In this document: positions 10,886 to 27,196 of the stretch, in pieces
Layout: each line of letters begins with the position of its first letter
How positions within the stretch are numbered: position 1 is the stretch's first letter
Origin: Halodesulfurarchaeum formicicum
Lineage (GTDB): Archaea > Halobacteriota > Halobacteria > Halobacteriales > Halobacteriaceae
Length of the DNA: 64,000 nt
Reading direction: 5' to 3'
Assembly (NCBI RefSeq): GCF_001886955.1
Contig: NZ_CP016804.1
Location: forward strand, 806,001 to 870,000
Program-made: the position numbers and the translations under genes
Notes under the pieces: model-generated
What the model was told of the DNA's origin: nothing
Databases searched by the model: none
What the model saw: only the letters and a program-made list of their open reading frames with translations

Positions 10886-13800
10886 TACTCGGTGGGCTGG
10901 GCCGTGACTTCGGGGAGGCCACTCGTGCCGACGGACTCGACGGTCTCGTTCGTGGTGTCAGTCGTGTTCGTGTCGGTCTGGGTGTCCTCCTGGCCCGTGT
11001 CGATCACCTGTTCGTCGAGGGTCACCGTGATGGGCTCGTCGCTCGCTCCGATCACGGTCCCTTCAGGCACGTCGACGGTGGCGCTGTGGGTCGTCATCGT
11101 CTCGTTCGCCCGGTCCACAGTCGTCGGCGTGCTGAACTCGTAGGGGCCGGTGGCCCGCACACTCGTGTTGGTGTACCCGTCCTCGGGGCCCCACGCATCG
11201 TAGTCGGTCGAGGCGTAGGGCAGGGTCATCTCGAAGTCGCCGTTCGCGTCCGTCTCGGCGTGCTGGGTGTAGGTGAACGTGCTGTCGTTGTAGGGAGCGT
11301 TCGACTCCAGCTCGACCGTGGCGGTCACAGTCGAGTCTGCCGGGCCCTCACCCTCGATGGTCGCGCCGGGGACACGCTCGAAGAGCTTGACCCAGGTGGG
11401 CTGTTCGCCCTCGCGGAACTCGAGATTCGCGAGTTTCTGCTGGCGGACGGTGGCGTCCTCGGAGACCCGGACCAGGCGATAGTGCTCCAGGGCTTTGAGG
11501 TCCTCACGCGGGAAGTCGGCCACCCCGCCGACGATCGCGTTGCTGTCGTTTGCGGCGAACTCCTGGGCGGCCTCACTGGACCGGAAGGTCCGGGAGGTGG
11601 CGTAGGTCGGAACCGGGTTCTGGTACTGCTCGTACTCGCGGTTCTCGTACTGGACGACGGTGTTCGCCTCGACCGCGCTCCCGTGGTGGTGATAGAGCCG
11701 GACCATCTGGCTCTCGTAGTAGCGCTGGGTTTTCAGCGTGGTCACGGGTGGCCGGAAGCCCGAGTTGAGGTAGGTCCCGGCGTTCGGGCCCAGGATCTGC
11801 CCGTCGGTCATGTTGTCGTAACTCAGGCTGTCGTTCGCGTTGTAGAAGACCGTGGGCGCGCTGAACTTGCCCTGGGTGTCGACCATCTTGTAGTCGACGG
11901 CCACGTACTGGGTTTCGGCGTCGTCCTCGTCGGTGGCCGCAAGCCGCTCGTTGGCGGTCTCCTCGTCACCGGCGAGCAGGTAGTTCGCGGCCTGGGTGGC
12001 GTGCTGCTGGAACGGGTTCGCGACCGGGATGCGCTCGCCCAGCACCGTGATCCAGTGGCCGTAGTCCCACCAGCTCATCACGCCGTAGGCCCCTTCGGGG
12101 TAGTCATAATCATCACCCTCGGGAATGGCGTAGGTGCCGTCGTAATCGAGTTGATCAGCGTTGCCCGCACCCCCGTAGTTCCCCACTTCGGGGGTGTTGT
12201 TCTGCATCCAGCCCAGGGTGCTGTCCCACTCGGTGACGGCCCCAGGCCCGGCGTTCGCGCCGGTCTGGACGGCGGTTTGCATCTGGACCTGCCGGCCGTC
12301 CTGGTTCGCGAAGCTGATCGGGGCGACCATGGGTGCAAAGAGCAGGAGCACGATGGTCACGACGAGCATGACGTGACTCCAGTCGATCGAGCGCGGGGAG
12401 AGAGTCGCCAGGCTGACGCCGAAGACGTCGATCACGCGCCCGACCGCGTAGGCCGCGAGGATGGCGACCGGGACGACGAGGTAGTAGTTGAACCGGACCT
12501 GGGTGAGTGCCGCGGCGAGCATGAACGCCGCCCAGACCACGAGCAGGATTTGCTCGGTGGGGTAGTCCCCGGCGATCAGTGCGGCGGCGACGGCCAGGCT
12601 GAGCACCAGCAGGCCGAAGAGGTCCCCGCTGAGGCCGATGATGCCCCCGAGGGCCGTGGGAATGGCCGGGAAGCCGACGAAGAGCCCACCCAGCAGGAGC
12701 ACGCCCGCGGCCATGCTGATGCGGCGGGAGTCAGAACTCAGGAGGTGTGGCCGGAGGATCATCCAGAGCCCGCCCAGCAGGGCGAGGAAGAAGGCCGCGC
12801 CGTACTCGTAGAAGAAGGCCTGCCAGGCCCCCAGGCCGAGTCGGTCGGCGCGGGACTGGAGGAAGGGCTGGGCCTCGCTGATGGTGCGGGTGGTTGCACC
12901 CGTGGAGAGGCCGACGATGCGGATGAGTTCATTGAGGATCATTCCGACCAGATCGGGGACGACGAGCAGTCCCGCGCCTGTGCTGACTACCAGGATACCC
13001 AGCACTGCAGGTGGGTAATAGGTCGGTTCGAGGTTCCGTGCCTCCCACTCGCGAGCCAGCCACGAGAGGAAGACTGCTCCGGCGGCGACCACCAGTGGGG
13101 CGATAACTTGGAGTAGTGTGTAGCCCGTCGCGGAAAATTCAAGGTAACGCAGCGGGACGAGCATGAGAATCCCGGTTGTGACCATTGCGATAGTGGCTGG
13201 GATGGCGGTGTGATCCGGGCTGACGCCACTCGTGACGTCACTGGAGAGTGAGACGAGCAGGAAGATGCCGACGATACCCACGAGGAAGACGCCGGGCGGC
13301 CACATCCACATGTACGCGGCCATGGCCACGCCCGCGAGGACGCCCCAGCCGATGACGTTTCGCAGGCCGGCGATATCGAGTTCGAGGAGTTGCTCCCAGA
13401 CCGGGCGTTCGCGGTCGGCGACGGCAAAGGCGACCAAGAGGCCCAGGATCGCCAGGGACATGAAGAGCGGTTCGGCGACGTTGTGGTCCGCTGAACCGAT
13501 GGTGCCACGCTGGAGGAAGAGACCAGGGAGAAGTGCGAGAACGAAGGCAGCGATTACGCCGACGATGTTGCCGCCGAATCTTCGAGCGATGAGGAAGGTC
13601 GGGATCGCAACCAGCGCACCGAAGATTGCGGGGGCGAAGGCCACGACAGTGGCAACTTGCTGGCTCGATGGGTCACCCAGGCCGACAATGAGGGCTGCTG
13701 TGGCGATCAGCTGGTCGAAGAGTGTGCCGAACTGGCCGGAATTGTTTCCTGCGGCGAATCCAGTCCAGACGTCAAATGGCATCGTCGCGAGCCCGTTCTC

Positions 13801-14016
13801 AACGGAGTACTGGACCTGGCGAAGGTGATACCAGGCGTCGTTCCCCGCGAGGTACGTTTTTCCGGGCTGGAGGAATCGATCCGCGGATTGGATCCGGATG
13901 AAGAACATCGTCACGACGGCCAGTACCAGCGCCGGCACGTGGTACCAGCGCCGGAACGTGTCCGTGAGTGCCTCCATGTCGATAGTGGAGCCACTCGCTG
14001 TCGAGTCGTCGCTCAT
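10885..14016 (-). CDS. aglB: Dolichyl-linked oligosaccharide-protein glycosyltransferase AglB
   Basis: The archaeal STT3-type oligosaccharyltransferase, 1043 residues, which moves glycan from dolichol to Asn in N-x-S/T sequons outside the membrane. About 13 transmembrane helices fill the first 600 residues. Catalytic markers are visible: AGNDAWYHLR in the first outer loop, SADHNVAEP (about residue 175), TISEAQPF (about 377, the SVSE-type motif) and WWDYGHWI (about 647). A beta-rich extracellular C-terminal domain ends in a Thr-rich tail. The ATG at 14014-14016 is chosen because a TATA-like box lies about 26-31 nt before it. The DUF368 gene is coupled downstream. Confidence 0.96.
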   Translation of the reverse strand: MSDDSTASGSTIDMEALTDTFRRWYHVPALVLAVVTMFFIRIQSADRFLQPGKTYLAGNDAWYHLRQVQYSVENGLATMPFDVWTGFAAGNNSGQFGTLFDQLIATAALIVGLGDPSSQQVATVVAFAPAIFGALVAIPTFLIARRFGGNIVGVIAAFVLALLPGLFLQRGTIGSADHNVAEPLFMSLAILGLLVAFAVADRERPVWEQLLELDIAGLRNVIGWGVLAGVAMAAYMWMWPPGVFLVGIVGIFLLVSLSSDVTSGVSPDHTAIPATIAMVTTGILMLVPLRYLEFSATGYTLLQVIAPLVVAAGAVFLSWLAREWEARNLEPTYYPPAVLGILVVSTGAGLLVVPDLVGMILNELIRIVGLSTGATTRTISEAQPFLQSRADRLGLGAWQAFFYEYGAAFFLALLGGLWMILRPHLLSSDSRRISMAAGVLLLGGLFVGFPAIPTALGGIIGLSGDLFGLLVLSLAVAAALIAGDYPTEQILLVVWAAFMLAAALTQVRFNYYLVVPVAILAAYAVGRVIDVFGVSLATLSPRSIDWSHVMLVVTIVLLLFAPMVAPISFANQDGRQVQMQTAVQTGANAGPGAVTEWDSTLGWMQNNTPEVGNYGGAGNADQLDYDGTYAIPEGDDYDYPEGAYGVMSWWDYGHWITVLGERIPVANPFQQHATQAANYLLAGDEETANERLAATDEDDAETQYVAVDYKMVDTQGKFSAPTVFYNANDSLSYDNMTDGQILGPNAGTYLNSGFRPPVTTLKTQRYYESQMVRLYHHHGSAVEANTVVQYENREYEQYQNPVPTYATSRTFRSSEAAQEFAANDSNAIVGGVADFPREDLKALEHYRLVRVSEDATVRQQKLANLEFREGEQPTWVKLFERVPGATIEGEGPADSTVTATVELESNAPYNDSTFTYTQHAETDANGDFEMTLPYASTDYDAWGPEDGYTNTSVRATGPYEFSTPTTVDRANETMTTHSATVDVPEGTVIGASDEPITVTLDEQVIDTGQEDTQTDTNTTDTTNETVESVGTSGLPEVTAQPTE

Positions 14017-14041
14017 TGGAATGAGGGACTTTGACGAGGCG

Positions 14042-14047
14042 AATAAG
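14042..14047 (-). promoter_or_regulatory. TATA-like box for aglB
   Basis: On the minus strand CTTATT lies 26-31 nt before the aglB ATG, consistent with a leaderless mRNA and supporting the chosen start. Confidence 0.4.
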
Positions 14048-14139
14048 CCTTGTGAATGTTGCCGAAAACGGCTGCCCAAACGGGGGTTATCTCTGAATGT
14101 ATGTAATTTCAGAACCGCGAACAGAATGCAAATCTGGCC

Positions 14140-15237
14140 TTATGCATTTCTAAATTTTGAAAAACCATACACGTAGCCGAGACCAACACTCACAGTGGCG
14201 AATAGCAAAAACCCAAGCTGCTGGAGGTTTTTGAGACGCTCCCCTCTGACCAGCTGCTTTAACCGGCTGGGAACTGCGCTCGTAACTAGGTTTTTCAAAA
14301 AGTCTGATTCCGATTCTAACTCAGTTTCACTGTATACCTGCATCCCGCGTTTCGAAACTCCTTGCCAGAACGCGCGTTTGAGGAGAAAAACAGGATCTGT
14401 CCGGAATTCGTACACCTTGTGACCGACCTCCGCGTCCGGATTATACAAAACACCGTGTCCCGTTTCTTCTGCAATACGGCCACATAGGTCTGTCTCCGCA
14501 CTTTGAAGGAGGGACCCACCTTTCGGACCGATCTCTGAGTTGAAGCCCCCGATTTCGTCAAAAACTGACTTTTTGACCGAGAGGTTAGACGCGAACGTGT
14601 TTCGAACCTCCGTCATTTCCTCCGGGTGGCCGGCATATGTGACACCAATGAGCCAGTAAAACTCCGGTGGGAGAAACTGGGGGTGTCCAGCAATCCAAAT
14701 TGGAACCATCTTTCCCCCTGCAGCGACCGCATCGTATTCAGTATAGCAGCGGACTAATTCTTGTAACCAATCTTCATCCGCGACAGCATCGTCGTCGAAA
14801 AACGCCACGATCTCCCCTTCAGCTTTTGCTACTGCTCGGTTACGGCTGCTTGCAGCGCCAACGTTGGTCTCGTTTACGAGAATGGAGACTGCCGATTTGT
14901 CCTCCCAACGATCACGAAGGCGTTTGCCGAGTTCCTCTCGCCCATCTACGACTACAATGACATCTCTCTCAGAATAGTTCCCGTCAAGTATACTTTGGAC
15001 CCCTTCGTTGATATCAGGAAATCGTTCAGGGTCATAAGCCGTCACAATGACCGTGACGTGCGGTTCCTTGTTCGTTGACACGCGATTGGATTTTCTTTCG
15101 TTGGCAAAATCTTTTGTGCTACGAATTGGGCGGTGAGTTTCTGATAAATCTATAGAGTGTTTGTTTTGGGATCGATCTAATGGGAAGTCAACCTTTGACC
15201 TGAATCGGGCAGTTGTCGAAGTAGGGAGCTCATCCAC
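14140..15237 (-). CDS. GT2 glycosyltransferase, AglG/AglI-like
   Basis: A 365-residue family-2 glycosyltransferase. The GT-A domain starts near residue 60 (VTVIVTAYD), with NETNVGAASSRNRAVAKA and the metal-binding FFDDDAVADEDWL (DDD motif). EIGGFNSEI and a later ETDLCGRI supply acceptor-loop and base residues. A C-terminal hydrophobic segment (FLLFATVSVGLGYVYGF) anchors it to the membrane. The architecture fits haloarchaeal dolichyl-phosphate sugar transferases such as AglG and AglI. The first 45 residues are atypical, so a start at an internal GTG (V-S-T-N-K) is possible. Codons are AT-richer than in aglB; this gene opens the AT-rich island. Confidence 0.85.
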   Translation of the reverse strand: MDELPTSTTARFRSKVDFPLDRSQNKHSIDLSETHRPIRSTKDFANERKSNRVSTNKEPHVTVIVTAYDPERFPDINEGVQSILDGNYSERDVIVVVDGREELGKRLRDRWEDKSAVSILVNETNVGAASSRNRAVAKAEGEIVAFFDDDAVADEDWLQELVRCYTEYDAVAAGGKMVPIWIAGHPQFLPPEFYWLIGVTYAGHPEEMTEVRNTFASNLSVKKSVFDEIGGFNSEIGPKGGSLLQSAETDLCGRIAEETGHGVLYNPDAEVGHKVYEFRTDPVFLLKRAFWQGVSKRGMQVYSETELESESDFLKNLVTSAVPSRLKQLVRGERLKNLQQLGFLLFATVSVGLGYVYGFSKFRNA

Positions 15238-15392
15238 GGCTGTAGCTGTTTCCGTTGATTTGGGACGACTGGTACCAATCTGCTGTAATGTGTGGTGGCG
15301 GAGGTAACTTCATCCAGTTAGTCAGTAGGAAACTTCGGGCTCTCTGTGGAATTCGAAGACGACATACCGGAGAGTCCGTAATAGAATTTTTA

Positions 15393-16433
15393 ATGAAGAT
15401 ACTGTGGCTTCGCCCGTCCAAAGGAGATAATATCAGTGTTCGGCGGGAGCGGATCGCCTCCGAGTTACGGGAACGAGGTTACACCGTCGACATCGTCGAT
15501 GCTTCTGGATGGGATGCCCCAAAGGCCATCTGGAAGGCGTTGACCGGTTCCTATGATATTATTGCGGGTAACGTTCGAGTTGGGCTCTATCTTGGATATC
15601 CGATTGCTCGACTTCTTCGGACTCCGTTCTTGGGCGACGTGAGCGACCCGATTTCGGATATCGACTATCTTCCTGAACCGCTGTTCCGGTTCTTCGAACG
15701 GTACGAATGGTGGGTGTTGGAACGAGCTGATGCGACGGTGTTTGTCTACAAATCGAGCTATCAAGAAGCACTTGACCGTGGGATAGACGACGCAGTTCGA
15801 CTTCCGAACGCCGTGGATTACGAGGCCTTTGCCGATCCCAATCCGGAAGCAGTGCGAGATGCGGAGTCGATTTTACGGGAGGAAGGCGTTGATCTTGATA
15901 ATCCGATCGCGATATATCTCGGGGTTCTGACACCGAGTTACAAGATCGAAGCGATTCTCGAGACGGCCCAACACGCACCGGAGTGGGAGTTTGTCTTTAT
16001 TGGGGAAGGCGATCTGGCTGATACTGTTCGGCAGGAAGCACAGTCACAGGACAACGTCCACTATCCGGGTGCGTTCGAATACCGACTCATGCCTGGATTT
16101 CTTGCACATGCAGACGTCGGTTTCTGTTTCAAGGATGCTGAACAGCCGTTGAAGCTCAAGGAGTACGGCGCGGCAGGGCTTCCTACTATCGTTCGGCCTG
16201 GGGAGTTGTCGAAATGGTACGATGATAATGAGTTGGCGTTTTTAGAGCCAGATCCCGAAGCCATTGTTGATCGGTTAGATGAATTGGGGAGTAATCAAGA
16301 AATGTACGCGACTTACAGCGAGGCAGGACGTGAGATTGGGAGTGAATGGAGCTGGGAGGAGATTGCAGAAGGTTATATTCGAATTTTTGAGGACAAATTC
16401 CAAGATTTAGTTTCCCATTCTGAACTGCTTTAA
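15393..16433 (+). CDS. GT4-type glycosyltransferase
   Basis: A 346-residue GT-B glycosyltransferase. MKILWLRPSKGDNISVRRERIASELRERG is the N-terminal acceptor domain, PNAVDYEAF the interdomain sugar-nucleotide loop, and EQPLKLKEYGAAGLPTIV the E-x7-E-like donor site. The ATG at 15393 is preferred over the longer frame from 15255, which lacks family features. It diverges from the GT2 gene across a 155-bp gap. Donor and acceptor are unknown; context points to surface-glycan assembly. Confidence 0.82.
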   Translation: MKILWLRPSKGDNISVRRERIASELRERGYTVDIVDASGWDAPKAIWKALTGSYDIIAGNVRVGLYLGYPIARLLRTPFLGDVSDPISDIDYLPEPLFRFFERYEWWVLERADATVFVYKSSYQEALDRGIDDAVRLPNAVDYEAFADPNPEAVRDAESILREEGVDLDNPIAIYLGVLTPSYKIEAILETAQHAPEWEFVFIGEGDLADTVRQEAQSQDNVHYPGAFEYRLMPGFLAHADVGFCFKDAEQPLKLKEYGAAGLPTIVRPGELSKWYDDNELAFLEPDPEAIVDRLDELGSNQEMYATYSEAGREIGSEWSWEEIAEGYIRIFEDKFQDLVSHSELL

Positions 16434-17106
16434 GCACCCAAATAGACTTAAAACCGGGACAAAAGAAATTGTTACAACGAACCGAATAATGTTAGACTAT
16501 TTCCGGAGTTTTTGTTAACTCTATGAGGGACAACAGTAAATATGAACAGGTGACAGGTACGTTACTGAACGTAAGCACATCAGTTGTATAACCAAAAAAT
16601 TCACTGGATGAAAATGTCTCGATCAATTGGACATTATCTCATATGTTCGGCCCAAGTTTGAACATATCGATCAGAAACACGTCGAGTGATGTAACCGATA
16701 AGTTAGCCAATATTAGCTCAAGGTAGATGAGGATGAACACGAAGATGGCGACCCGAGGTTGTAGAAGTTATTAATCCCTTTTTCGTTACGACGAAGTTTG
16801 ATGCGAGAGTCCCTGAACTGATCTGTGGCGTCCACGAAGTCCTGATAGAGCTAATATGTCAATCCGAGAATATGACTGTCTCGTTGTATCGAGAAGCGCG
16901 TCGACATTCCGCCGATGGGCGACAATGTTGTTTTCCGAATCAGATATGAGTGTACCCGTGCGAAGACGCATCTACCACTATGGTTGGTACTTGACCCACA
17001 GAAGTACTCTGACTCCGCGGCACAGGCAAAATACAGGCCCCGGGCTCGGGGGAACATGCTAAAACTTACTTGTCCTCCATGGTTAACATGGTCTAGAAGG
17101 GTTAAA
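16434..17106 (+). other. Long AT-rich intergenic stretch before the Kdo operon
   Basis: About 670 bp with no convincing gene. Reading frames here are short and overlap on both strands, and none has a family motif. The upstream half is AT-rich with stop codons in all frames. The 200 bp before 17107 is more GC-rich and may be a gene remnant. The promoter of the Kdo-type operon must lie here; I could not fix it to a single box. Confidence 0.5.
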
Positions 17107-18300
17107 ATGAGTCAATTAGTTTTTTCAGATGTCGATGGCGTCCTCACAGACTCGAAAATCAATATCGGCCGGGATGGCGAGGTCTTCAAATCGTTTGACG
17201 TAAAAGACGGATACGGAATCGTCCAGTGGCGGGAACAGGACGGCCGCGACTTCGCGATCGTCACCTCAAGGGAATCCCAAGCTGTTGCTAATCGGGCGTC
17301 GGAACTTGGTGTGGACGAGGTCCACCAAGGGGTGGAAAATAAAAAACAAAAAATCGAGGAGATCACACTTCGTCTCGGATTCGATCTCGCGGATTCGGTT
17401 TACATTGGCGACGATCTGACGGACCTACAGGCTATGAAAACTGTTGGGACGGCTTGTTGTCCCGCAGACGCGGCTCAAAAAGTAAAAAACGAGTGTTCGT
17501 ACGTCAGCCAGTACAACGGTGGCGACGGAGCCGTTCGGGACATCCTGAACCACTTAGAAACAGCTTCTCAAATAGCACTTGGCGTTATTCCCGCTCGATA
17601 TGGGTCAACGCGTCTGCCCGGTAAACCATTAGTCGAGATAGCTGGCAAGCCGATGATTCAGCATGTATACGAGCGTGCGAGCAGAGCGAACTTGCTTGAC
17701 GACCTCATCGTTGCAACAGACGATGAACGCATTGTTGAGGCGGTCGAGGCGGTCGGCGGCACCGCAATGATGACCGAAGCTGATCACCCGACAGGAACGG
17801 ATCGGGTGGCAGAAGTGGCTGCGAATGTCGGCGCGGACTTTACGATCAATATCCAGGGCGACGAGCCGCTAATTAACCCTGATCTCATCGACGCAATTGT
17901 GACGGCTCTTAGAGAGAACTCTCCGAAAGTCGCAACGCCGATCTCCCCAATTGAAGATGAATCACTCCTTAACGACGAAAACACGGTCAAGGTTGTAACC
18001 GACGCCGACGGAAGGGCGCTTTACTTTTCGCGGTCGAAAATACCATCAGGTGGAGAAACAGGAACGACGTACAAACATATCGGGCTGTATGGATTCGAGA
18101 CAGAGCTCCTACTCAAATACATCAATATGGAGTCAGAACTCGAATCCGTTGAAGACCTCGAACAACTTCGGCTGCTTGAAAATGGGTACGAAATACAAAC
18201 TGTTGAGACAGACTACAACTCAAAAGAGGTTAACGTGGAAAGTGATATAATGAGGGTGGAAAAAGAAATAGAACAGATACACACCCATGGAACTCAGTAA
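17107..18300 (+). CDS. Fused Kdo-8-phosphate phosphatase (KdsC) and CMP-Kdo synthetase (KdsB)
   Basis: A 397-residue two-domain enzyme. Residues 1 to about 155 are a KdsC-type HAD phosphatase without cap: FSDVDGVLTD with nucleophile Asp8 and Asp10, TSRES, and GDDLTD at 101-106. Residues about 156-397 are KdsB: IPARYGSTRLPGKPL (161-175), QGDEPLI (250-256), KHIGLYGF and the ESVEDLEQLRLLENG block that marks CMP-Kdo synthetases rather than sialic-acid ones. It would dephosphorylate Kdo-8-P and activate Kdo with CTP. The ATG at 17107 begins the HAD fold; upstream codons in frame do not fit. The stop overlaps kdsA by 14 nt. Confidence 0.9.
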   Translation: MSQLVFSDVDGVLTDSKINIGRDGEVFKSFDVKDGYGIVQWREQDGRDFAIVTSRESQAVANRASELGVDEVHQGVENKKQKIEEITLRLGFDLADSVYIGDDLTDLQAMKTVGTACCPADAAQKVKNECSYVSQYNGGDGAVRDILNHLETASQIALGVIPARYGSTRLPGKPLVEIAGKPMIQHVYERASRANLLDDLIVATDDERIVEAVEAVGGTAMMTEADHPTGTDRVAEVAANVGADFTINIQGDEPLINPDLIDAIVTALRENSPKVATPISPIEDESLLNDENTVKVVTDADGRALYFSRSKIPSGGETGTTYKHIGLYGFETELLLKYINMESELESVEDLEQLRLLENGYEIQTVETDYNSKEVNVESDIMRVEKEIEQIHTHGTQ

Positions 18301-19105
18301 CAACATTTCCGTTTCTAACGAAGACGATTTTTTCTTGATCGCGGGTCCGTGTGCGATCGAATCAGAGGAACAAGTGCTGAAGACAGCACGGGAACTGAAA
18401 GACATCACTGACCGCCACGACATCGACCTGATTTTCAAGAGTTCGTTCGACAAAGCTAACCGGTCGTCGATCAGTTCGTATCGTGGTCCCGGGATGGAAC
18501 GGGGACTCGAAATCTTACAGCGGGTCAAAGACGAGTACGACCTTCCGGTTATAACTGACTTCCACGTCCCTGAACAGGCAGAGCCCGCTGCAGACGTCGT
18601 TGACGCTCTCCAGGTGCCAGCGTTCCTCTCACGGCAAACCGATATGCTCACTGCGGCTGGAGAGACGGGACTCCCGATCAACGTCAAGAAGGGGCAGTTT
18701 CTTGCTGCGGACGGTATGGATAACGTCGTGAACAAGATTGAATCGACGGGGAACGAACGGGTGATGCTCTGTGAACGCGGGGCGATGTTTGGATACAATA
18801 ACCTCGTCGCTGATATGCGGAATTTAGATATTATGAAGGGACTAGACAAGCCGGTTGTGTTCGACACGACACACTCGGTGCAACGGCCGGGCGCACAGGG
18901 CGACTCCAGTGGGGGGGATCGTCGGTTTGCGCCGACGTTAGCGCGGGCCGCACTTGGTGTTGGGGTGGCTGGTATTTTTGCCGAAGTGCACCCTGATCCG
19001 TCGTCAGCCAAATCCGACGCGGCGACACAACTTCCGCTCGATGATTTCGAATCGCTCCTAAAACAATGGAAAGCGATTGATAAAGCGGTGAAACATGGCA
19101 AGTGA
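18287..19105 (+). CDS. kdsA: 3-deoxy-D-manno-octulosonate-8-phosphate synthase
   Basis: A 272-residue TIM-barrel enzyme condensing arabinose-5-phosphate with PEP to give Kdo-8-P. Markers are AGPCAIESEE (Cys22), FKSSFDKANRSS (50-61), QVPAFLSRQTDML, NVKKGQFLA, FGYNNLVADMR and the TTHSVQ, EVHPDP and KSDAATQLPL blocks. Cys22, His196, Glu233 and Asp244 line up with the four metal ligands of the Aquifex enzyme, so this should be the metal-dependent class. The usual Cys of AFLCRQTD is Ser here. It overlaps the genes on both sides (14 and 11 nt). NeuB-type sialic acid synthases lack the SSFDKANRSS block, so that alternative is unlikely. Confidence 0.94.
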   Translation: MELSNNISVSNEDDFFLIAGPCAIESEEQVLKTARELKDITDRHDIDLIFKSSFDKANRSSISSYRGPGMERGLEILQRVKDEYDLPVITDFHVPEQAEPAADVVDALQVPAFLSRQTDMLTAAGETGLPINVKKGQFLAADGMDNVVNKIESTGNERVMLCERGAMFGYNNLVADMRNLDIMKGLDKPVVFDTTHSVQRPGAQGDSSGGDRRFAPTLARAALGVGVAGIFAEVHPDPSSAKSDAATQLPLDDFESLLKQWKAIDKAVKHGK

Positions 19106-20087
19106 TCAGGACGGGCTGGCCAAGACAGATGTTCGTGATGCCGTCTATCACACGCTATCGGTTCAAGAAAGTTCAATTTCCACGCTACAGGATACGGAGA
19201 CGGTCGCGGAGATAACCCGTGTGGCGGAAGTGATTAGCGAAGAAGATGGTCGGGTGGTATTTTCCGGAATTGGAAAGTCCGGGGACGTGGGCAAGAAGGT
19301 CTCATCGACCTTCAATAGTATAGGGGTGTCTTCGCACTTCATTCATCCTGTCGAGGCTCTCCACGGAGACTTGGGGGCTCTTTCAGCGGAAGACGTTGTT
19401 GTTCTTATCTCGAATAGCGGAAACACGGACGAGATGGTAGAGCTACTGCAATTTCTTCGCTCGTTCGATGCGACGACTGTATCGATCACGTCCGATCCTG
19501 AATCGAAATTAGGCACAAGGGCGGATTATCATATCAACACGAAAATAGAAGAGGAAGGAGCGGTCGTGGAGTTAGTCCCGATGGCCAGTGCTACTTCCAC
19601 GATGGTCATCGGAGACTGTATCGCTAATGCACTGATGGCAAATCGGGATTTCAGCGAACAGGATTACGGACACTTCCATCCTGGGGGAACAATTGGGAAG
19701 CGTTTGTTGCTTACCGTTGAGGATTTACTACACAAGAATATTCCAAAAACTCGGCCAGCAGACACACTAGCTAAAGTTGCTCTGAAAATAAGTGAGGGCG
19801 GTAAAGGGATTGCTGTGGTTCAGGACGATGATGACTATGTGAAAGGGGTCTTAACGGACGGTGATATACGCCGATTTATTGAATCTGGTACTGACTTCCA
19901 TGATGTGGTAGCCGAAGAAGTGATGATTACGGATCCGATTACGACTTCCGTTGATATGGCCGCAATACGGGCTTTAGAAGTTATTGAGGAGAAAAATATT
20001 TCACAGCTTGTGGTGACTGATGATTCTGACCAGTTCTTAGGTGTCGTTCACATCCATGACATTATGGAGAGAGGGTTGACGGCATAA
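19095..20087 (+). CDS. kdsD: Arabinose-5-phosphate isomerase
   Basis: A 330-residue KdsD/KpsF protein that interconverts ribulose-5-phosphate and arabinose-5-phosphate, the first step toward Kdo. The SIS domain shows SGIGKSGDVGKK (57-68), HPVEALHGDLGAL and SNSGNTDE (107-114), then GHFHPGGTIGKRLL, the family's catalytic His loop. Two CBS domains fill the C-terminal third, each ending in a GVLTDGDIRR- or GVVHIHDIM-type strand. Length and order match bacterial KdsD. It overlaps kdsA by 11 nt and ends one base before the next gene. Confidence 0.93.
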   Translation: MASDQDGLAKTDVRDAVYHTLSVQESSISTLQDTETVAEITRVAEVISEEDGRVVFSGIGKSGDVGKKVSSTFNSIGVSSHFIHPVEALHGDLGALSAEDVVVLISNSGNTDEMVELLQFLRSFDATTVSITSDPESKLGTRADYHINTKIEEEGAVVELVPMASATSTMVIGDCIANALMANRDFSEQDYGHFHPGGTIGKRLLLTVEDLLHKNIPKTRPADTLAKVALKISEGGKGIAVVQDDDDYVKGVLTDGDIRRFIESGTDFHDVVAEEVMITDPITTSVDMAAIRALEVIEEKNISQLVVTDDSDQFLGVVHIHDIMERGLTA

Positions 20088-20088
20088 T

Positions 20089-21372
20089 ATGGACGATATT
20101 CTATTTATCTCAGATACCTCGGATGGGCAGAACTGGGGCTGTTACGAAACCAGTAGACAGTTGAGAAACCTTCTATTGGAGTCAGTGGACATACAATATA
20201 CAGTTTTTTTGAACGAAATCAGGGACCCAATCCGCACTACCGTTCCCCCGTCATTATCTGATGTTCAGTATTTAATCGGAGAGTCTTCGAAGATATTCGA
20301 AAGTTCTTCCCCAATATATAGGCGATTTCTTGATCATGGGTTACGACCAGCAAAACACGTATTTGATATTTATCCTAGAGTTATGGACCAATTTGAAAAC
20401 AAGTCCGAACTGTTTCTCAAATCAAAATTGTTCGGCAAGTATTTCCCAGACCCTGGCAATATCGACCAGGTCGTTATTAATGGTGAAGGGAGCATCCATG
20501 GTAACCGGATTAAATCTCGAATATTATTGTTCTTTGCCTACATATGGCGGGTGAAGCTAGACAAGCCCACACACATTGTCAATCATACTCTGCAAATTGA
20601 CACACCTGAATTGAAGGAGATGATTAAGGTAATATACCCGCAATTGAATTCTATCGCTTTTAGAGAGCCAATCTCAAAATTAGAATATCACTCTAAGATT
20701 GGTGATACAAATAATACTATTCAGGCAGCTGACACCGCTTGGCTGTTAGACGACTGCTTAACAAAGACCGATCTGAACACCATTTTGCGTCAAGGTGGAA
20801 TGTCGGTCTGGCATCCTACAGAAATCCAACCTAGTTTTGATTTCACTGATCGATATGTATGTGTTAGTGGGGGTTCAGGGTTTGGCCACGGGAAAGAGGA
20901 TTCAGAAAAAATAGCCGAAATAATACGGTCACTATTAGATAACAATATTGACGCTAATATACTCCTTGTAGCTCCTGCACAACACGATGAGCATATTCTT
21001 CTTAGAGTGGCTGAAGGCTTCAATCTACCTTTAGCAAAGGTTAGCAATAACTCTCTTGTTGGCGCATCAATAATCGGAAATTCCGAACTGTACTTAGGTG
21101 GTAGATGGCATGGAAGTATATTTGCATTACTAAACGGTGCTAGGTTGGTTAACTTTAAGGCAAACACATTTAAAATGAGGGGGCTGAAAGATATGACAAA
21201 CCACCCATACCAAATCTATCCTTCTCAACAAGCTGGTAACAAAGCAGACGAAATAGCTAAATCTGTTATAAGTGGATTAGACAAGAGTATTGGAGATGGT
21301 CAGGAAAAGATGATAAAATCACTTCAAAGTATGAGTAGGAAAAATTTAGATGGCGTACGCGAGGATGTTTAA
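20089..21372 (+). CDS. Polysaccharide pyruvyl transferase family protein
   Basis: A 427-residue protein of the PF04230-like family, which adds pyruvate from PEP to sugars as ketals, or in some members acts as a glycosyltransferase. VVINGEGSIHGNR near residue 130 and GGRWHGSIFALLNGARLVNF near 345 are the two family blocks. It starts one base after kdsD ends, so it belongs to the same transcript. Codon use is markedly AT-rich (ATA, TTA, AGA common), unlike the core genes of this genome, which points to transfer. Confidence 0.8.
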   Translation: MDDILFISDTSDGQNWGCYETSRQLRNLLLESVDIQYTVFLNEIRDPIRTTVPPSLSDVQYLIGESSKIFESSSPIYRRFLDHGLRPAKHVFDIYPRVMDQFENKSELFLKSKLFGKYFPDPGNIDQVVINGEGSIHGNRIKSRILLFFAYIWRVKLDKPTHIVNHTLQIDTPELKEMIKVIYPQLNSIAFREPISKLEYHSKIGDTNNTIQAADTAWLLDDCLTKTDLNTILRQGGMSVWHPTEIQPSFDFTDRYVCVSGGSGFGHGKEDSEKIAEIIRSLLDNNIDANILLVAPAQHDEHILLRVAEGFNLPLAKVSNNSLVGASIIGNSELYLGGRWHGSIFALLNGARLVNFKANTFKMRGLKDMTNHPYQIYPSQQAGNKADEIAKSVISGLDKSIGDGQEKMIKSLQSMSRKNLDGVREDV

Positions 21373-22821
21373 ATGGTGAATAATAACCCAAAGTCCGACA
21401 GCTCAAGCAGCATAAGGAATGTAGTACTATTATGCCTAGACTCGGTTCGTAAAGACTACTTCGACAGATACGCAAAGAGGTTGAACGAACAATCTGACGT
21501 GGTGTATAACGGTGCGCGTGCGGCTAGTGGGTGGAGCTTACCGAGTCACGCCAGCATGTTCACTGGAGAACTCCCGCATTCGCATGGTGCTCATGCTCAC
21601 TCAGATGGATTTGAACCCATAAGTATAACGGACACCTTTTTATCTGACCTGCCAAACCATTCTATACTAGGAGTGAGCACAAATACATTTGCGGGTGAGG
21701 CTTATGGATTTGATAAATACTTTGACGTTTTCTCAGAAGTACCTCATAATTCGTTCCAACTTTCTAAAGGAGTTTCTCCTGAAGATTTTGGGAAAATAAA
21801 TAAGTTTGAATACTTGAAAGAATCAATAAGGGACAATGACACTATTTACAGTCTGATAAATGGTATAATATCGAAGTTCGGTATGTATGAGCGCATATTT
21901 TCAGGTAGACCATGGCCCGAAATCAACGACAATGGAACAGCCCGTTCACTCCAATTGGCTGAGTCTCATATAACGAATACTGAGTCAGCAGAAAATCCTG
22001 TATTTGTCTTTTTGAATTTAATGGAGTCCCATTCCCCGATGTATGCACATTATAATTACGACAGTACAATTCATACCGTTCCAAATTCATGGACATCCGC
22101 AAATGGCCCAAAAAACAGGGAAGTTTCGTTTGACGCTGATAGCTACCGAGAATATATTAATAATTGGACAGATATTTATAGTGCATCTATTGACTACCTT
22201 GACAGAGTCATAAGTGATTGGATAGAAAGAATCAATACACTCACCGAAAATGAAACCACAATAGTAGTCACCTCAGACCATGGTCAAAATTTGGGAAATC
22301 CATCAGAAGAGGAGTTGTTTGGACATCAATCGAGTCTTAGCGAAGGGATTCTCCATGTTCCTTTACTCATCATTAACCCACCAGATGGCTATCAGGAACA
22401 AGTGGACAGATTGATTAGTCATTTAGAGATTGGTTCGCTGATTACCCACTTGGCGAACGAAGACATGTACAAATTCAGCAATAACAGTGTCACTAGTGAG
22501 GTTGTCGGAACAATAAAAAGTCACAAAAATAACCTTACGTATTGGGATCGCCCTATCCGCTGTTCGTATAAAGATGAAACAAAAAAAGTACTCTGGGATG
22601 GTTTAGAAACGACAAAAATTTATGACATAGATGAAAGTATACCGAACGTACAAAATGAAATAGACATTATTGAAAACATGACTCCCGAAGATGACGATAT
22701 TTTGTTTGAGGTCTCGATAAAGGAGATGAAACGAAAGGCTCTAAGGGATAGATTATCATCAGGTAATCAAGATCTCTCCGATGATGTACAATCAAGGCTA
22801 TCCGACCTGGGATATGTTTGA
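21373..22821 (+). CDS. Alkaline-phosphatase superfamily sulfatase-like enzyme
   Basis: A 482-residue enzyme with the alkaline phosphatase/sulfatase fold. VVLLCLDSVRKDYF carries the first metal Asp; SGWSLPSHASMFTG is the nucleophile region, with Ser in place of the C-x-P-x-R Cys of classical sulfatases; VVTSDHGQNLG provides the metal Asp-His pair. No signal peptide is seen, so it would act in the cytoplasm unless it leaves by another route. It could remove or transfer sulfate or phosphoryl groups on glycans. Its ATG follows the previous stop with no gap. AT-rich codons as in its neighbours. Confidence 0.72.
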   Translation: MVNNNPKSDSSSSIRNVVLLCLDSVRKDYFDRYAKRLNEQSDVVYNGARAASGWSLPSHASMFTGELPHSHGAHAHSDGFEPISITDTFLSDLPNHSILGVSTNTFAGEAYGFDKYFDVFSEVPHNSFQLSKGVSPEDFGKINKFEYLKESIRDNDTIYSLINGIISKFGMYERIFSGRPWPEINDNGTARSLQLAESHITNTESAENPVFVFLNLMESHSPMYAHYNYDSTIHTVPNSWTSANGPKNREVSFDADSYREYINNWTDIYSASIDYLDRVISDWIERINTLTENETTIVVTSDHGQNLGNPSEEELFGHQSSLSEGILHVPLLIINPPDGYQEQVDRLISHLEIGSLITHLANEDMYKFSNNSVTSEVVGTIKSHKNNLTYWDRPIRCSYKDETKKVLWDGLETTKIYDIDESIPNVQNEIDIIENMTPEDDDILFEVSIKEMKRKALRDRLSSGNQDLSDDVQSRLSDLGYV

Positions 22822-22867
22822 ACAACTAAATAGGCAAATAGATCTGTTTCCGTAGTTAATTTCCACT

Positions 22868-23785
22868 ATGTCAATGAAAATGTTACAGAACAGATATGAG
22901 GGAGAGAGGGTTTTTTTGATTGGTAATGGTCCAAGTTTGGATAAAACGCCGCTTGATCGGCTAAATAGTGAATACAGTATAGCTTTGAATGGGATAAATG
23001 ACATATATTCGGAAACTACATGGAGGCCTTCTTTTTACGTTCTCTTACTTGAGGAATTTGAGAAGAACTATGATACCTATTTCATTAATAATTTTAGGTC
23101 AGGCGTAGAATGTATAACATTACGCCAACATAAAGGGAAATTTGGTGATAGGGAAGACATTCATTATGTCAAAAAGAAGAAGCTCAAATGCAATCCGGTG
23201 GAATCCGGTAAAAACTTCCACGAATTAAGTAAAGAGGAAATTCAATCTATGAGGCTCTGTGATCTATATGAGTTCTGGCCTAATGATATCTCTAAATGTC
23301 TATACACATATCACTCGATGTATGCAATTATTCAAATCGCCATATATATGGGTTTCAAAGAAATCTACCTTCTTGGCTGTGATTTGGGCTATAGTACCTA
23401 TGATCCACATATGATATTTAACGAGGGATTAAACCCTCACGGCTGGAAGGAGGGTAAGAACGCCTACTTGCTAGAAAGCTATCGAGAAGATATACTAATA
23501 AAATCAGTTATAAATGAGATCATTTTCAAGATTCTCTCCTCTCCGATTGGAGAACTTGCTGGTCAGGTCTTAGATTATGTGAATGAATTAGATGACGCAA
23601 ACCGGTTCGGTTCGCATACACAGCTTCAACCCGAAGACCTCACACATGTGAACGACGAAATAACGAAAAGTCATATTGCGGCTCAACGAATTGCTTCTGA
23701 TCAAGGAGTTGATATTTATAATGCAACAATTGGGGGAGAGCTAGAAGTATATCCCCGTGTATCACTGGAAAATGTAGTAGATTGA
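22868..23785 (+). CDS. DUF115/MptE-Maf-like protein, copy 1 (candidate sugar transferase)
   Basis: A 305-residue protein of the DUF115 family. VFLIGNGPSLDKTPL (15-29), LNGINDIYSETTWRPSFYVL and MYAIIQIAIYMGFKEIYLLGCDLGY form the nucleotide-binding half; IYNATIGGELEVYPRV is the family's C-terminal block. The same fold core occurs in Maf proteins, which transfer CMP-activated nonulosonic acids to flagellin, and resembles GT42 sialyltransferases; another branch, MptE, makes pterin diphosphate. Neighbouring CMP-Kdo genes favour a CMP-sugar transferase, but this is inference. The following gene is a diverged tandem copy. AT-rich. Confidence 0.72.
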   Translation: MSMKMLQNRYEGERVFLIGNGPSLDKTPLDRLNSEYSIALNGINDIYSETTWRPSFYVLLLEEFEKNYDTYFINNFRSGVECITLRQHKGKFGDREDIHYVKKKKLKCNPVESGKNFHELSKEEIQSMRLCDLYEFWPNDISKCLYTYHSMYAIIQIAIYMGFKEIYLLGCDLGYSTYDPHMIFNEGLNPHGWKEGKNAYLLESYREDILIKSVINEIIFKILSSPIGELAGQVLDYVNELDDANRFGSHTQLQPEDLTHVNDEITKSHIAAQRIASDQGVDIYNATIGGELEVYPRVSLENVVD

Positions 23786-23792
23786 TAATAAT

Positions 23793-24722
23793 ATGGATCT
23801 TATTGAAATTAGAAACGAATACTCGGGCAGAATTTTCTTAATCGGGAGCGGGCCAAGTCTCAAAGAGACACCGCTTGAGTTACTCCAGGATGAATATACA
23901 TTTGCCGCGAATAGCATTTCGGATATATTCAGTGAAACGGAGTGGCGACCGTCATTTTACGCCTGCGTTGACGACGGAGTTGACACAAGTTACTGTGAAG
24001 AAGCAATAGAACTCGGGATACCATGCTTTTTTCCGGAAAAGACTACCCGAGGAACCGCACTAATCGAATCTGTCCCAACCAAGGATAACACTCTGTTTTT
24101 CGAAAATATCGATCTCCGAGATCGCGCCGACTTGGATATATCCACGTTCCAGTTGAATTCTGACTCAATAACGAGCTATCATGACGTTTGGTCTGAGGAC
24201 ATCACAGAGGTCGTGTATGGATATAACACAGTGATGTACCAGATGATGCAAATATCGCTTTACATGGGGTTCGATGAAATCCATCTCGTGGGAAACGACC
24301 TCTACGACGTTTTTGATGGGTATTTGCTGTTTCCAGAAGCTGCAGACCCAGCTGTATTCCATGGAGATGGTGAATCGATACTCCAGAATGGAATCGAATT
24401 TCTACATGATAGTAATTACCTCCTGAAGTCGTTTGCCAATGCGTTATCGTATAAAACGATTAAATCTAAAGTATTCAGCAAACTGTATCCGCAGCTTTCA
24501 AACCATATCGAATTAATTGACCAGGATAATTACTTCTCAGAAGACTATTCCAATGGGGAAATCATAACGCCAGAAAAGAACCGTAGACATATTCTTGCCC
24601 ACGAACTGGCCAAATCAGTCTCTGATGAACTTGGATTCGACATCTATAACGCAACTGTGGGCGGGCATCTGGAAGTTTACCCAAGAACAGATATTACAAG
24701 CGTTGTTGAGGATGGAGAGTAA
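23793..24722 (+). CDS. DUF115/MptE-Maf-like protein, copy 2 (candidate sugar transferase)
   Basis: A 309-residue paralogue of the preceding protein, 7 bp downstream. It has IFLIGSGPSLKETPLELL, ANSISDIFSETEWRPSFYAC, MMQISLYMGFDEIHLVGNDLY and IYNATVGGHLEVYPRT in the same order. The middle (about 60-140) differs most, as expected if the two act on different acceptors. Codons are less AT-rich than in copy 1, so the pair may have diverged before arriving here. Function as for copy 1: a CMP-sugar-dependent transferase is possible, pterin metabolism is the alternative. Confidence 0.7.
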   Translation: MDLIEIRNEYSGRIFLIGSGPSLKETPLELLQDEYTFAANSISDIFSETEWRPSFYACVDDGVDTSYCEEAIELGIPCFFPEKTTRGTALIESVPTKDNTLFFENIDLRDRADLDISTFQLNSDSITSYHDVWSEDITEVVYGYNTVMYQMMQISLYMGFDEIHLVGNDLYDVFDGYLLFPEAADPAVFHGDGESILQNGIEFLHDSNYLLKSFANALSYKTIKSKVFSKLYPQLSNHIELIDQDNYFSEDYSNGEIITPEKNRRHILAHELAKSVSDELGFDIYNATVGGHLEVYPRTDITSVVEDGE

Positions 24723-24807
24723 CGATTAAATTCTACTCCAGCGACAAGATCCTCTGTGATGCTAATAGACCAATTACGTTTAGTAAATGTATGCGAGAGC
24801 TATTATT

Positions 24808-26007
24808 ATGGAACAATTAGGAATTCTGTACTACGTTAGTTCGTTTCCGAAGCTCTCTGAGAGTTTCATACTAAATGAAATCACCGAACTTCACCACCGG
24901 GGGCATAATATCGCAGTCTTTGCCCAAAACGACCCAGGAGAAAATATTACGCATGAGGAATACGAAGACATTGACGTTCCGATTTACTATGTGGATGCCT
25001 CGTATACTGATTTCCCCCAATTACTCTCTAAGAAATCCGCTCAAATGGCACTAGGCCATGCAACAGACGGGCTTTTCAAGCATTTCTCACCAAAGCGAAT
25101 TGGCCACAACTTACTCTTAGGCAAGCAAAGTGCTGAGTTCATCGAATCACTTGATTTCGACATTGATATCGTTACTGCTCACTTTGCGAGTCCCTCCAGA
25201 ATTGGTGCGATGCTCGCTGCACGCTATTACGGTATTCCATGTACGGTTACCGCCCATGCATACGAAATATTCTCTTCTCCGATTGTTCCTCAGATAAAGT
25301 ATATCTGCGATAGTATGGATCACGTGGTTGTCCCATCTGAATACAATCGGAACTATCTTCGCGAAGAGATCGGGATTGCAAACGATATAACGGTTGTTCC
25401 AGCGACGACACAGGTTGAGAAGTTCGAACCGACAGCCCTTACCGTTGAGAACCGACTGTTAACTGTTGCTCGGTTGGTTGAAAAGAAAGGCTATCCGTAT
25501 GGTATTGAGGCCGTGAATAAGCTCATTGAACAAGGGTACGATGTCGAATATCACATCGTTGGAACTGGTGATAGGAAAGACCGCTTACAGCAACAGGTGA
25601 AAGAGTACGGCATTGAAGGTCACGTCGAGTTCTTGGGTCACGTCTCCGATGAACGACTCCAGAAAGAACTGAGTGAAGCCGCTGTCTTTGTATTGCCTTG
25701 CGTTATTGCTGAGGACGGCGATCGAGATGCAATGCCGGTCGTTCTCAAGGAAGCGATGGCGTCAGAAACCGCGTGCGTCTCGACAACCGTCTCTGCGATT
25801 CCGGAACTCATTACTGACGCCCATAACGGGTTGTTGGTTCCAGAGAAAGAACCTAATGAGTTAGCGTCTGCAATCCAAGAACTCCTTGATAATCCGGAAA
25901 AACGGAAAGCCATAGCAACGAATGGGCGAGAAACCGTCCATAATAAGTTTGATATTTCTAAGTCTGTAGATACATTAGTCGAGGTATTTCAGTCCTTGCA
26001 GAACTGA
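24808..26007 (+). CDS. GT4-type glycosyltransferase
   Basis: A 399-residue GT-B enzyme. FPKLSESFILNEITEL is the typical N-terminal acceptor loop of polysaccharide GT4 enzymes; TAHAYEIF and VPSEYNRNYL lie in the linker region; AEDGDRDAMPVVLKEAMASE carries the E-x7-E donor site. Two starts are possible: 24787, or the ATG at 24808 chosen here because the Rossmann strand starts right after it. It closes the AT-rich cluster and has intermediate base composition. Donor unknown. Confidence 0.83.
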   Translation: MEQLGILYYVSSFPKLSESFILNEITELHHRGHNIAVFAQNDPGENITHEEYEDIDVPIYYVDASYTDFPQLLSKKSAQMALGHATDGLFKHFSPKRIGHNLLLGKQSAEFIESLDFDIDIVTAHFASPSRIGAMLAARYYGIPCTVTAHAYEIFSSPIVPQIKYICDSMDHVVVPSEYNRNYLREEIGIANDITVVPATTQVEKFEPTALTVENRLLTVARLVEKKGYPYGIEAVNKLIEQGYDVEYHIVGTGDRKDRLQQQVKEYGIEGHVEFLGHVSDERLQKELSEAAVFVLPCVIAEDGDRDAMPVVLKEAMASETACVSTTVSAIPELITDAHNGLLVPEKEPNELASAIQELLDNPEKRKAIATNGRETVHNKFDISKSVDTLVEVFQSLQN

Positions 26008-26051
26008 ATATAACCGGGTTCCACCAATTTTTCTCGTAGGATTTAATCACC

Positions 26052-26150
26052 TACGAACCAAAACACACGATTCGCGAGGGTGTCGAGAAGTTCATCGACT
26101 GGTATCGCCAGAACCGCGACTGGTACGAACCGCTCGTCCTCAACTCCTAA
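26052..26150 (+). pseudogene. 3' remnant of an SDR nucleotide-sugar epimerase gene
   Basis: Reading from 26052 gives 32 residues and a stop: YEPKHTIREGVEKFIDW then YRQNRDWYEPLVLNS. This is the usual C terminus of extended-SDR UDP-glucuronate/glucose 4-epimerases (GVE-x2-I-x-WYR). Nothing upstream in frame continues the enzyme, so only the tail survives. It marks the right-hand edge of the AT-rich island. Confidence 0.7.
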
Positions 26151-26438
26151 CACCGGCAGAGCCCACCAACCCAGTTACTATATCTCGACAACCAAACCGG
26201 GTGGGACTCTGAAAGGGGCCGCTCGCTGGGCGAGCGAGACGACGCAAGGACCGCAGCGTCGCGAGGACCGCAGCGAGCCCGAGACGAACGAAGTGAGTCT
26301 CGGTGCGCGAGCGGCGCGAGCGTCGCAGCCGTCCAGCGAGCGGGGGCTTTCGGTGGTTGAGAAAGCACAAACGCCACACTCGCCACCGCTCCCCCATCCA
26401 ACAAATTACTTAACCCACAACTGACGAATACACACCCA
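26151..26438. other. Hairpin-rich GC-rich spacer before aglF
   Basis: About 290 bp without a credible gene. It contains several short inverted repeats of the haloarchaeal type, for example GAGAC-gaacgaagt-GAGTCTC near 26280 and CGAGCG-rich arms. Similar short inserts occur inside the broken aglF copies at 28.6 and 33.4 kb. The last 40 bp are AT-richer and should hold the aglF promoter. Confidence 0.45.
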
Positions 26439-27179: not shown

Positions 27180-27196
27180 GATCCGCGCGAAGTCCC

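Follow-up and report, generated by a model that had tools for sequence, protein, structure and literature searches.

A predicted CMP-Kdo biosynthesis cassette beside aglB in a haloarchaeal surface-glycan island

The window analysed here (64,000 nucleotides of Halodesulfurarchaeum formicicum) corresponds to positions 806001-870000 of one closed haloarchaeal contig of 2,085,946 bases. At 17107-20087 it contains three overlapping open reading frames, encoding a KdsC-KdsB fusion, KdsA, and KdsD, in this order. The fusion (17107-18300, forward strand) has a predicted Kdo-8-phosphate phosphatase of the HAD superfamily, KdsC, as its N-terminal half (17113-17559, forward) and a predicted CMP-Kdo synthetase, KdsB, as its C-terminal half (17578-18276, forward). 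It overlaps by 14 nt the gene of KdsA (18287-19105, forward), a putative Kdo-8-phosphate synthase of the metal-dependent class (Cys22), which overlaps by 11 nt that of KdsD/KpsF (19095-20087, forward), a putative arabinose-5-phosphate isomerase with SIS (PF01380) and two CBS domains. A longer frame of the fusion, starting at 16915, is unsupported: the other full-length haloarchaeal copies begin at the residue encoded at 17107. A fusion of the same two activities is found in a polysaccharide cluster on a plasmid of Pseudomonas sp. TMW 2.1634, but there KdsB comes first. We therefore rejected the idea that the haloarchaeal protein is simply this bacterial fusion, because the domain order is reversed.

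The cassette forms the start of a run of eight genes, within a glycan island that adjoins aglB. After KdsD, the run encodes a polysaccharide pyruvyl transferase-like protein (20089-21372, forward; PF04230, 61 bits vs 25.3), a sulfatase-superfamily protein whose role as hydrolase or transferase is unresolved (21373-22821, forward; PF00884, 72.5 bits), two MptE-like proteins described below, and, last on this strand, a GT4 glycosyltransferase (24787-26007, forward; PF00534, 129.6 bits). Another GT4 glycosyltransferase lies upstream of the cassette (15384-16433, forward; PF00534, 41.8 bits). On the reverse strand are an AglG-like GT2 glycosyltransferase (14140-15237; NF041394, 373.7 bits, under the cut-off of 440) and an oligosaccharyltransferase (10885-14079), which we take to be AglB from its sequence and from knowledge of the family. 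AglB has homologues in all five other genomes with the cassette, and is 89% identical in a sister genome (G001). This sister genome matches the window at 89-98% identity on both sides of the island, but has unrelated glycan genes at the same place: sister genomes swap this island at one constant site next to aglB. No repeats of at least 20 bases were found within 13500-28500. Homologues of the pyruvyl transferase-like protein adjoin the cassette in G016 (43%) and NeuA/NeuB in G360.

An earlier note on this DNA had claimed that the three overlapping genes cover the four steps from ribulose-5-phosphate to CMP-Kdo. The positions of the reading frames bear this out, and all four enzymes pass the curated NCBIfam cut-offs of their families: KdsA with 389.9 bits (TIGR01362, cut-off 314), KdsB with 190.7 bits over residues 158-390 (TIGR00466, 155.2), KdsC with 130.8 bits over residues 3-151 (TIGR01670, 107), and KdsD with 267.5 bits (TIGR00393 KpsF/GutQ, 203.7). 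The stricter enterobacterial equivalogs of NCBIfam for KdsC, KdsD, and GutQ did not reach their thresholds (for KdsC, 125.5 vs 208 with PRK09484). The family motifs reported in the note for each enzyme are also present in alignments with E. coli K-12. In KdsA, these include the four metal ligands (C22, H196, E233, D244), residues K51, K56, N58, R59, D91, K134, and R164, and the KANRSS substrate motif, which matches that of E. coli. Residues K61, H90, E113, and H195 of KdsD correspond to K59, H88, E111, and H193. The KdsC domain is 36% identical to its E. coli counterpart, with the DVDGVLT, TSR, K, and GDD motifs aligned. The KdsB domain is 45% identical, shows the signature blocks PARYGSTRLPGKPL, QGDEP, and LEQLR, and has as best solved match 1gq9, annotated as a 3-deoxy-manno-octulosonate cytidylyltransferase. 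Nearly all catalytic residues are kept across the four enzymes, with the sole exception of one metal ligand of KdsB. We take the Mg2+ ligands of the E. coli enzyme to be Asp100 and Asp235. The first is present, within QGDEP, and the position of the second is occupied by Asn376, an Asn in all haloarchaeal copies and in three other operonic KdsBs (of G470, Thalassovita, and L092).

KdsA shares PF00793 with the DAHP synthases and is the only protein of the genome to have this domain, yet the idea that it serves aromatic amino acid synthesis beside incidental neighbours is hardly tenable and, as far as sequence can tell, already contradicted by the NCBIfam and PDB scores (in the latter, 296 bits for KDO8P synthases vs 117 for the best DAHP synthase), by the KANRSS motif, by the presence of KdsA in just 6 of 392 haloarchaea, and by its position next to KdsCB and KdsD in every case. 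Grouping of KdsA with DAHP synthases or NeuB, which would have refuted the earlier claim, is not what we find; identity with NeuB was rejected, as a search of the genome found no NeuB.

A bacterial-archaeal chimera would equally have undone the claim, and is excluded because the contig that holds the genes is haloarchaeal, closed, and 2.09 Mb long (the genome is 99.97% complete and 0.16% contaminated). Searching archaeal genomes for Kds proteins revealed the cassette—C-B fusion, A, and D—in five further haloarchaeal genomes, that is, in 6 of the 392 sampled and in five genera. The set had been described as that of a haloarchaeon, which is true but understates its spread because three genomes of the phylum, outside the haloarchaea, also carry Kdo gene sets. 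The six haloarchaeal KdsA form one clade with a support of 100/100 and a long stem, whose position among the bacterial sequences is unresolved. The cassette is under strong purifying selection (dN/dS of ~0.04 to 0.14 where computable), and its proteins are acidic, as in halo-adapted organisms. The single clade, the acidic proteins, and the strong selection argue against recent contamination. One might still see in the cassette non-functional bacterial DNA captured recently, or an assembly artefact, since the GC content drops from ~0.65 to 0.38-0.50 across the island and one of the six copies (in G253) is cut near a contig end, where a KdsCB fragment with a stop is followed by unrelated sequence. 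This is very improbable, and already contradicted by the closed contig, the sharing among five genera, and the selection and acidity just described; furthermore, bacterial relatives of KdsA reach about 60% identity at most among the matches listed.

The two MptE-like proteins are candidates for the use of CMP-Kdo. The first (22868-23785, forward) is a predicted CMP-Kdo-dependent glycosyltransferase of the GT42/Maf/WaaZ superfamily and matches PF01973 with 37.5 bits (cut-off 34.6). The second (23793-24722, forward), its tandem paralogue (33% identical), falls just under this cut-off (32.9 bits). Both share with CstI/CstII and Maf a GNGPSL motif, along with His and Asn residues that are conserved. 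A profile of 15 members of the family matches CstII (E=9e-6), CstI, and Maf. A profile of six members gave just a non-significant Maf match in the PDB, and a single protein compared with the PDB by phmmer gave no match at all. The AlphaFold2 model of the first protein is of modest confidence (pLDDT 67, pTM 0.68), and its top Foldseek matches are CstII, Maf, and a Pasteurella sialyltransferase, all with low TM-scores. By profile and predicted fold, the two proteins meet the expectations for members of the GT42/Maf sialyltransferase superfamily, even if their overall identity to it is low, they are paired with genes for CMP-Kdo synthesis, and, unlike Maf, they span only ~300 amino acids without flanking domains. 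The likeness to WaaZ, the Kdo-III transferase of the E. coli LPS core, is one of remote homology only: hhalign gave 95.5% probability over 161 columns, and the matches to TIGR04437 (E=1.9e-5 and 1.8e-5) are far under the equivalog cut-off (24 vs 200 bits).

The genomic distribution of these proteins bears indirectly on their donor. In all six haloarchaeal genomes with the MptE-like family, a gene like KdsB or NeuA lies within ~10 kb, whereas a strong match to a CMP-ulosonate synthetase occurs in only 50 of 242 genomes. This is a small test of genes that all occur together in glycan islands. Elsewhere, a Thalassovita plasmid gathers kdsA, kdsB, and kdsD with three MptE-like genes. There is precedent for a Maf protein using CMP-Kdo (PMC11339370). 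The genome has no match to PF04413 (WaaA/GT30) and, as mentioned, no NeuB, and thus offers no alternative of the LPS or the sialic acid type. We consider it probable, from this indirect evidence and without data on donor use, that the MptE-like proteins are Kdo transferases. Of the six genomes, only two have them together with the cassette; the other carriers have different or no evident candidates. The PF05159 proteins of G145, G253, and G614 (22-28 bits, C-terminal part only) might have been Kdo transferases of the KpsC/KpsS type. They remain leads only, given these weak and partial matches and the lack of a match to any NCBIfam Kdo-transferase model for the two that were searched.

On sequence grounds, four enzymes with conserved active sites are present, maintained by selection and placed in a glycan island. 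Genes for 6-phosphogluconate dehydrogenase and ribose-5-phosphate isomerase make a supply of ribulose-5-phosphate plausible. KdsD would convert it into arabinose-5-phosphate, which the metal-dependent KdsA would condense with phosphoenolpyruvate to give Kdo-8-phosphate. Of the two halves of the fusion, KdsC would then remove the phosphate and KdsB would link the free Kdo to CMP. Its transfer from CMP-Kdo to a lipid-linked surface glycan may be the task of one or both MptE-like proteins. The pyruvyl transferase-like and sulfatase-like products may modify this glycan, and AglB would most likely attach it, once complete, to the S-layer protein. We give this reading as a whole a probability of about 0.62, in the absence of biochemical or glycan data. 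Its first part, the synthesis of CMP-Kdo, is inferred from homology and very probable. The bacterial pathway to CMP-Kdo for LPS and group 2 capsules uses the same four enzyme families with the same conserved active sites, and the operon organisation resembles that of capsule-type clusters. In contrast with the bacterial systems, the haloarchaeal host lacks WaaA, KdsC is fused ahead of KdsB, KdsA forms its own clade, and KdsB has Asn for Asp235.

Some of these peculiarities could mean that the product is another 3-deoxy-ulosonic acid, like Kdo but with altered stereochemistry or substituents, made from a different aldose phosphate or modified later. The long stem of the KdsA clade and Asn376 of KdsB are compatible with this, as is the KdsB-like gene of a haloarchaeon without KdsA (G217), which indicates that Kdo is not the only sugar handled by the wider CMP-transferase family. 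However, the KANRSS motif and all tested catalytic residues of KdsA and KdsD are those of E. coli, and arabinose-5-phosphate is the substrate suggested by the KdsD gene within the operon. Such a product is thus quite unlikely.

It is harder to tell where Kdo ends up. The location beside aglB, among agl-type glycosyltransferases, is that of haloarchaeal N-glycosylation clusters. In Halorubrum sp. PV6, legionaminic acid is part of the N-glycan, and the genes around aglB include one for a sulfatase (PMC6137143). The two loci have in common genes for a CMP-activated ulosonic acid, glycosyltransferases, and a sulfatase in an aglB-centred cluster; they differ in that the PV6 genes make a nine-carbon legionaminic acid, whereas those described here would make the eight-carbon Kdo, without NeuB. 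Together, the two genes with a sialyltransferase fold and the aglB context, both outside what the earlier note had described, make the N-glycan a plausible destination, which we infer with a slight preference over other surface polymers. CMP-Kdo could instead be used for a secreted or capsule-like polysaccharide, or for a glycolipid, independently of AglB. Bacterial cassettes of this kind are located in capsule clusters, and capsule-type PF05159 proteins lie near the cassette in G145 and G253. The cassette is 3 kb from aglB in the window; in G026 the distance grows to 11.5 kb and in G016 to 45 kb. In G145 and G296, aglB is far from the cassette, and in G253 it is on a different contig, so that not every carrier can be presumed to place Kdo on an N-glycan. 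Against this use of CMP-Kdo stand the island of the window, which abuts aglB and the AglG-like gene, the MptE-like genes of G112 and G217, which also adjoin aglB/aglG, and the direct precedent of PV6. We regard it as the less likely use, though not a remote one. The N-glycan of the S-layer may contain Kdo in some haloarchaea, possibly pyruvylated, and added by a so far uncharacterised class of small archaeal enzymes with the sialyltransferase/Maf fold that act as Kdo transferases; in this specific form the proposal is tentative. Pyruvylated Kdo is part of the exopolysaccharide of Cobetia marina (PMC6801904).

The literature we searched contained no description of Kdo or Kds enzymes in haloarchaea, and neither Kdo in an archaeal glycoprotein nor an N-linked Kdo glycan. 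Kdo is a sugar known above all from Gram-negative bacteria, where it belongs to the outer membrane. Its presence is taken as a mark of Gram-negative envelopes and of plant cell walls, and its measurements serve as proxies of endotoxin. If our reading is correct, Kdo in hypersaline samples would not necessarily be bacterial, Kdo as part of an archaeal glycoprotein and N-linked glycans that contain it would be new with respect to the literature searched, and the MptE-like proteins would represent a new family of Kdo transferases. The swapping of sugar cassettes would also lend itself to a simple test of the way in which archaea alter the identity of their surface. More generally, the range of archaeal surface sugars would be wider, with CMP-Kdo pathways in several haloarchaeal genera that are swapped as a module of surface-glycan islands.

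The earlier note had placed all four CMP-Kdo steps in three overlapping genes at 17107-20087, and the open reading frames lie at exactly that place: a KdsC-KdsB fusion (KdsCB, 397 aa, 17107-18300), KdsA (18287-19105, overlapping the fusion gene by 14 nt), and KdsD (19095-20087, overlapping kdsA by 11 nt). All four activities exceed the curated NCBIfam cut-offs: KdsA with TIGR01362 (389.9 bits, cut-off 314), KdsB with TIGR00466 (190.7 bits, cut-off 155.2), KdsC with TIGR01670 (130.8 bits, cut-off 107), and the KdsD/KpsF group with TIGR00393 (267.5 bits, cut-off 203.7). The stricter NCBIfam enterobacterial equivalogs of KdsC and KdsD score below cut-off, as expected for distant orthologues. None of the cassette enzymes represents a new family; the novelty lies in the archaeal setting, the C-B fusion, and the linkage to aglB.

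Catalytic residues were read from alignments to the E. coli K-12 enzymes, whose residue assignments we take to be established for these families. KdsA shares E. coli Lys55, Lys60, Asn62, Arg63, Asp95, Lys138, Arg168, His202, Glu239, and Asp250 (window K51, K56, N58, R59, D91, K134, R164, H196, E233, and D244). Its Cys22 replaces E. coli Asn26, which places it in the metal-dependent class. KdsD conserves E. coli Lys59, His88, Glu111, and His193, KdsC its HAD motifs, and KdsB its signature blocks. The family motifs claimed for each enzyme, including the KdsA metal ligands, are present. The sole deviation among the residues checked is the second Mg2+ ligand of KdsB (E. coli Asp235), which is Asn376 in every haloarchaeal copy. 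Because the same Asn occurs in the KdsB of G470 (an archaeon of this phylum but outside the haloarchaea), Thalassovita, and one Sphingomonadaceae genome, this substitution is not diagnostic of lost function; KdsB activity stays a prediction from sequence.

The possibility that KdsA is instead a DAHP synthase or NeuB-type enzyme is contradicted by its PDB matches, which reach 296 bits for Kdo-8-phosphate synthases versus 117 for the best DAHP synthase, and no NeuB was found in the genome. A bacterial-archaeal chimera, also raised in the earlier note, is excluded because the window sits in a single 2,085,946-base contig of an assembly 99.97% complete and 0.16% contaminated. Recent contamination as the source of the cassette is ruled out by low dN/dS and acidic proteins. 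Relative to the window copies, dN/dS is ~0.08-0.14 for KdsCB, 0.04-0.07 for KdsA, and 0.11 for KdsD where computable, the remaining pairs being saturated at synonymous sites; the pI of haloarchaeal KdsA is 4.7-5.2, whereas 80 bacterial KdsAs have a median pI of 5.9. Judging from selection, the cassette genes are long-resident and functional.

The search of archaeal genomes proposed earlier gave KdsA above the cut-off in 6 of 392 haloarchaeal genomes (5 of 86 genera). KdsA is also present in three genomes of the same phylum outside this class, where the kds genes are separate and distant. In the tree, also proposed earlier, the six haloarchaeal copies form one fully supported clade with a long stem, separate from other archaeal copies; the tree leaves their donor unresolved. 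All six carriers have the cassette in identical gene order. In one of them (G253) the KdsCB part breaks off close to where the contig ends; a stop and unrelated sequence precede it, so five complete cassettes are seen.

The cassette heads an eight-gene same-strand run (17107-26007) with overlaps or short gaps between genes. Downstream of kdsD the run continues with one gene each for a PF04230 pyruvyl-transferase-like and a sulfatase-superfamily protein, then a pair of MptE-like genes (PF01973; 22868-23785 and 23793-24722, both +), and ends with a GT4 glycosyltransferase gene; directly upstream of the cassette lie a second GT4 gene, an AglG-like gene, and aglB (10885-14079, -). GC drops to 0.38-0.50 across the island. 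In the sister genome G001, aglB is 89% identical and the far-side genes are conserved (nucleotidyltransferase 98%, UDP-sugar dehydrogenase 93%, ABC transporter 98%), and the block between them consists of unrelated glycan genes. The cassette thus sits in a swappable surface-glycan island adjoining the oligosaccharyltransferase gene. The distance between kdsA and aglB is short or moderate in the window genome, G026, and G016, and large or unlinked in the other three carriers. Just past the island, a TnpB-like ORF (28983-30254, -) has a 42% identical ORF at the corresponding place in G001.

The two MptE-like proteins are likely TRANSFERASES, as judged from remote homology and association. Both match the WaaZ Kdo-III transferase model at E ~2e-5, far under its cut-off, and profile alignment with E. 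coli WaaZ gives 95.5% probability. Among solved structures, a 15-member MptE-like profile matches two CMP-sialic acid transferases, CstII and CstI (best E=9e-6), as well as a Pasteurella sialyltransferase and the flagellin glycosyltransferase Maf. Foldseek searches with an AlphaFold2 model (pLDDT 67, pTM 0.68) return CstII, Maf, and the Pasteurella enzyme on top; given the low TM-scores, it is the agreement between methods that carries the fold call. CMP-Kdo is a known substrate of one Maf protein (PMC11339370). His269, invariant in the haloarchaeal members, is by inference a candidate catalytic base.

The family occurs in six genomes of the haloarchaeal sample, and in each of them a CMP-ulosonate synthetase resembling KdsB or NeuA is encoded no more than ~10 kb away. 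Strong PF02348 matches (E<=1e-15) occur in just 50 of the 242 haloarchaeal genomes, so chance would rarely produce an association in all six (0.21^6, ~1e-4); residence of both in glycan islands is a confounder. Independently, a Thalassovita gelatinovora plasmid (L107:7948-22863) pairs kdsA/B/D with three MptE-like genes, one product being ~1579 aa; it also carries an acylneuraminate cytidylyltransferase-family gene. The MptE-like proteins are probably new Kdo transferases.

MptE-like genes are flanked by two NeuA-like cytidylyltransferases in G074 (L120:5216-10788) and G112 (L122:5475-12127). Where KdsA or NeuB would stand, these loci have an HpcH/HpaI aldolase together with an Ldh_2 dehydrogenase (the family searches covered G074 alone), possibly for a different, aldolase-made CMP-activated keto-sugar acid. 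In G217 (L121:9925-13584), a KdsB-like gene (NF009905, 291 bits), a D-2-hydroxyacid dehydrogenase gene, and an MptE-like gene are clustered with aglB/aglG; no KdsA was found in this genome, and its KdsB homologue probably activates an ulosonic acid other than Kdo. PF05159 (capsule synthesis) proteins near the cassettes of G145 (L008:12869-14584) and G253 (L009:1209-2816) are weak leads for other Kdo-transferase-type enzymes.

In the pathway we propose, ribulose-5-phosphate, available through the 6-phosphogluconate dehydrogenase and ribose-5-phosphate isomerase that the genome encodes, would be converted by KdsD, KdsA, KdsC, and KdsB to CMP-Kdo. An MptE-like protein would move Kdo onto a lipid-linked glycan (no WaaA was found in the genome), Kdo might be pyruvylated, and AglB would link the finished glycan to protein. 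Sequence supports the first four steps, remote homology and association support the transfer, and the AglB-linked destination has only its context behind it. 7,8-Pyruvylated Kdo is known from Cobetia marina EPS (PMC6801904). A haloarchaeal precedent exists in Halorubrum sp. PV6, whose N-glycan contains legionaminic acid, an acidic ulosonic sugar; the genes for it, like the window cassette, are grouped around aglB, with a gene for a sulfatase among them (PMC6137143).

No paper describing Kdo or Kdo synthesis in haloarchaea turned up in the literature searched; most subscription journals were not covered, so this absence is not proof. No bacterial match much above 60% identity was among the matches listed, and there was no near copy in the plasmid collection. 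Archaeal Kdo genes are rare but recurrent. In G470 (L102:4571-13642), kdsD/B/C/A share a locus with genes resembling neuA, neuB, and neuC and with a radical SAM gene, and from this gene content both Kdo and sialic-acid-type sugars may be produced. A plasmid of the Gram-positive actinomycete Streptomyces sp. NBC_00963 (L105:4551-6726) carries kdsA, a SIS-domain gene, and kdsB, a further setting of kds genes without an outer membrane.
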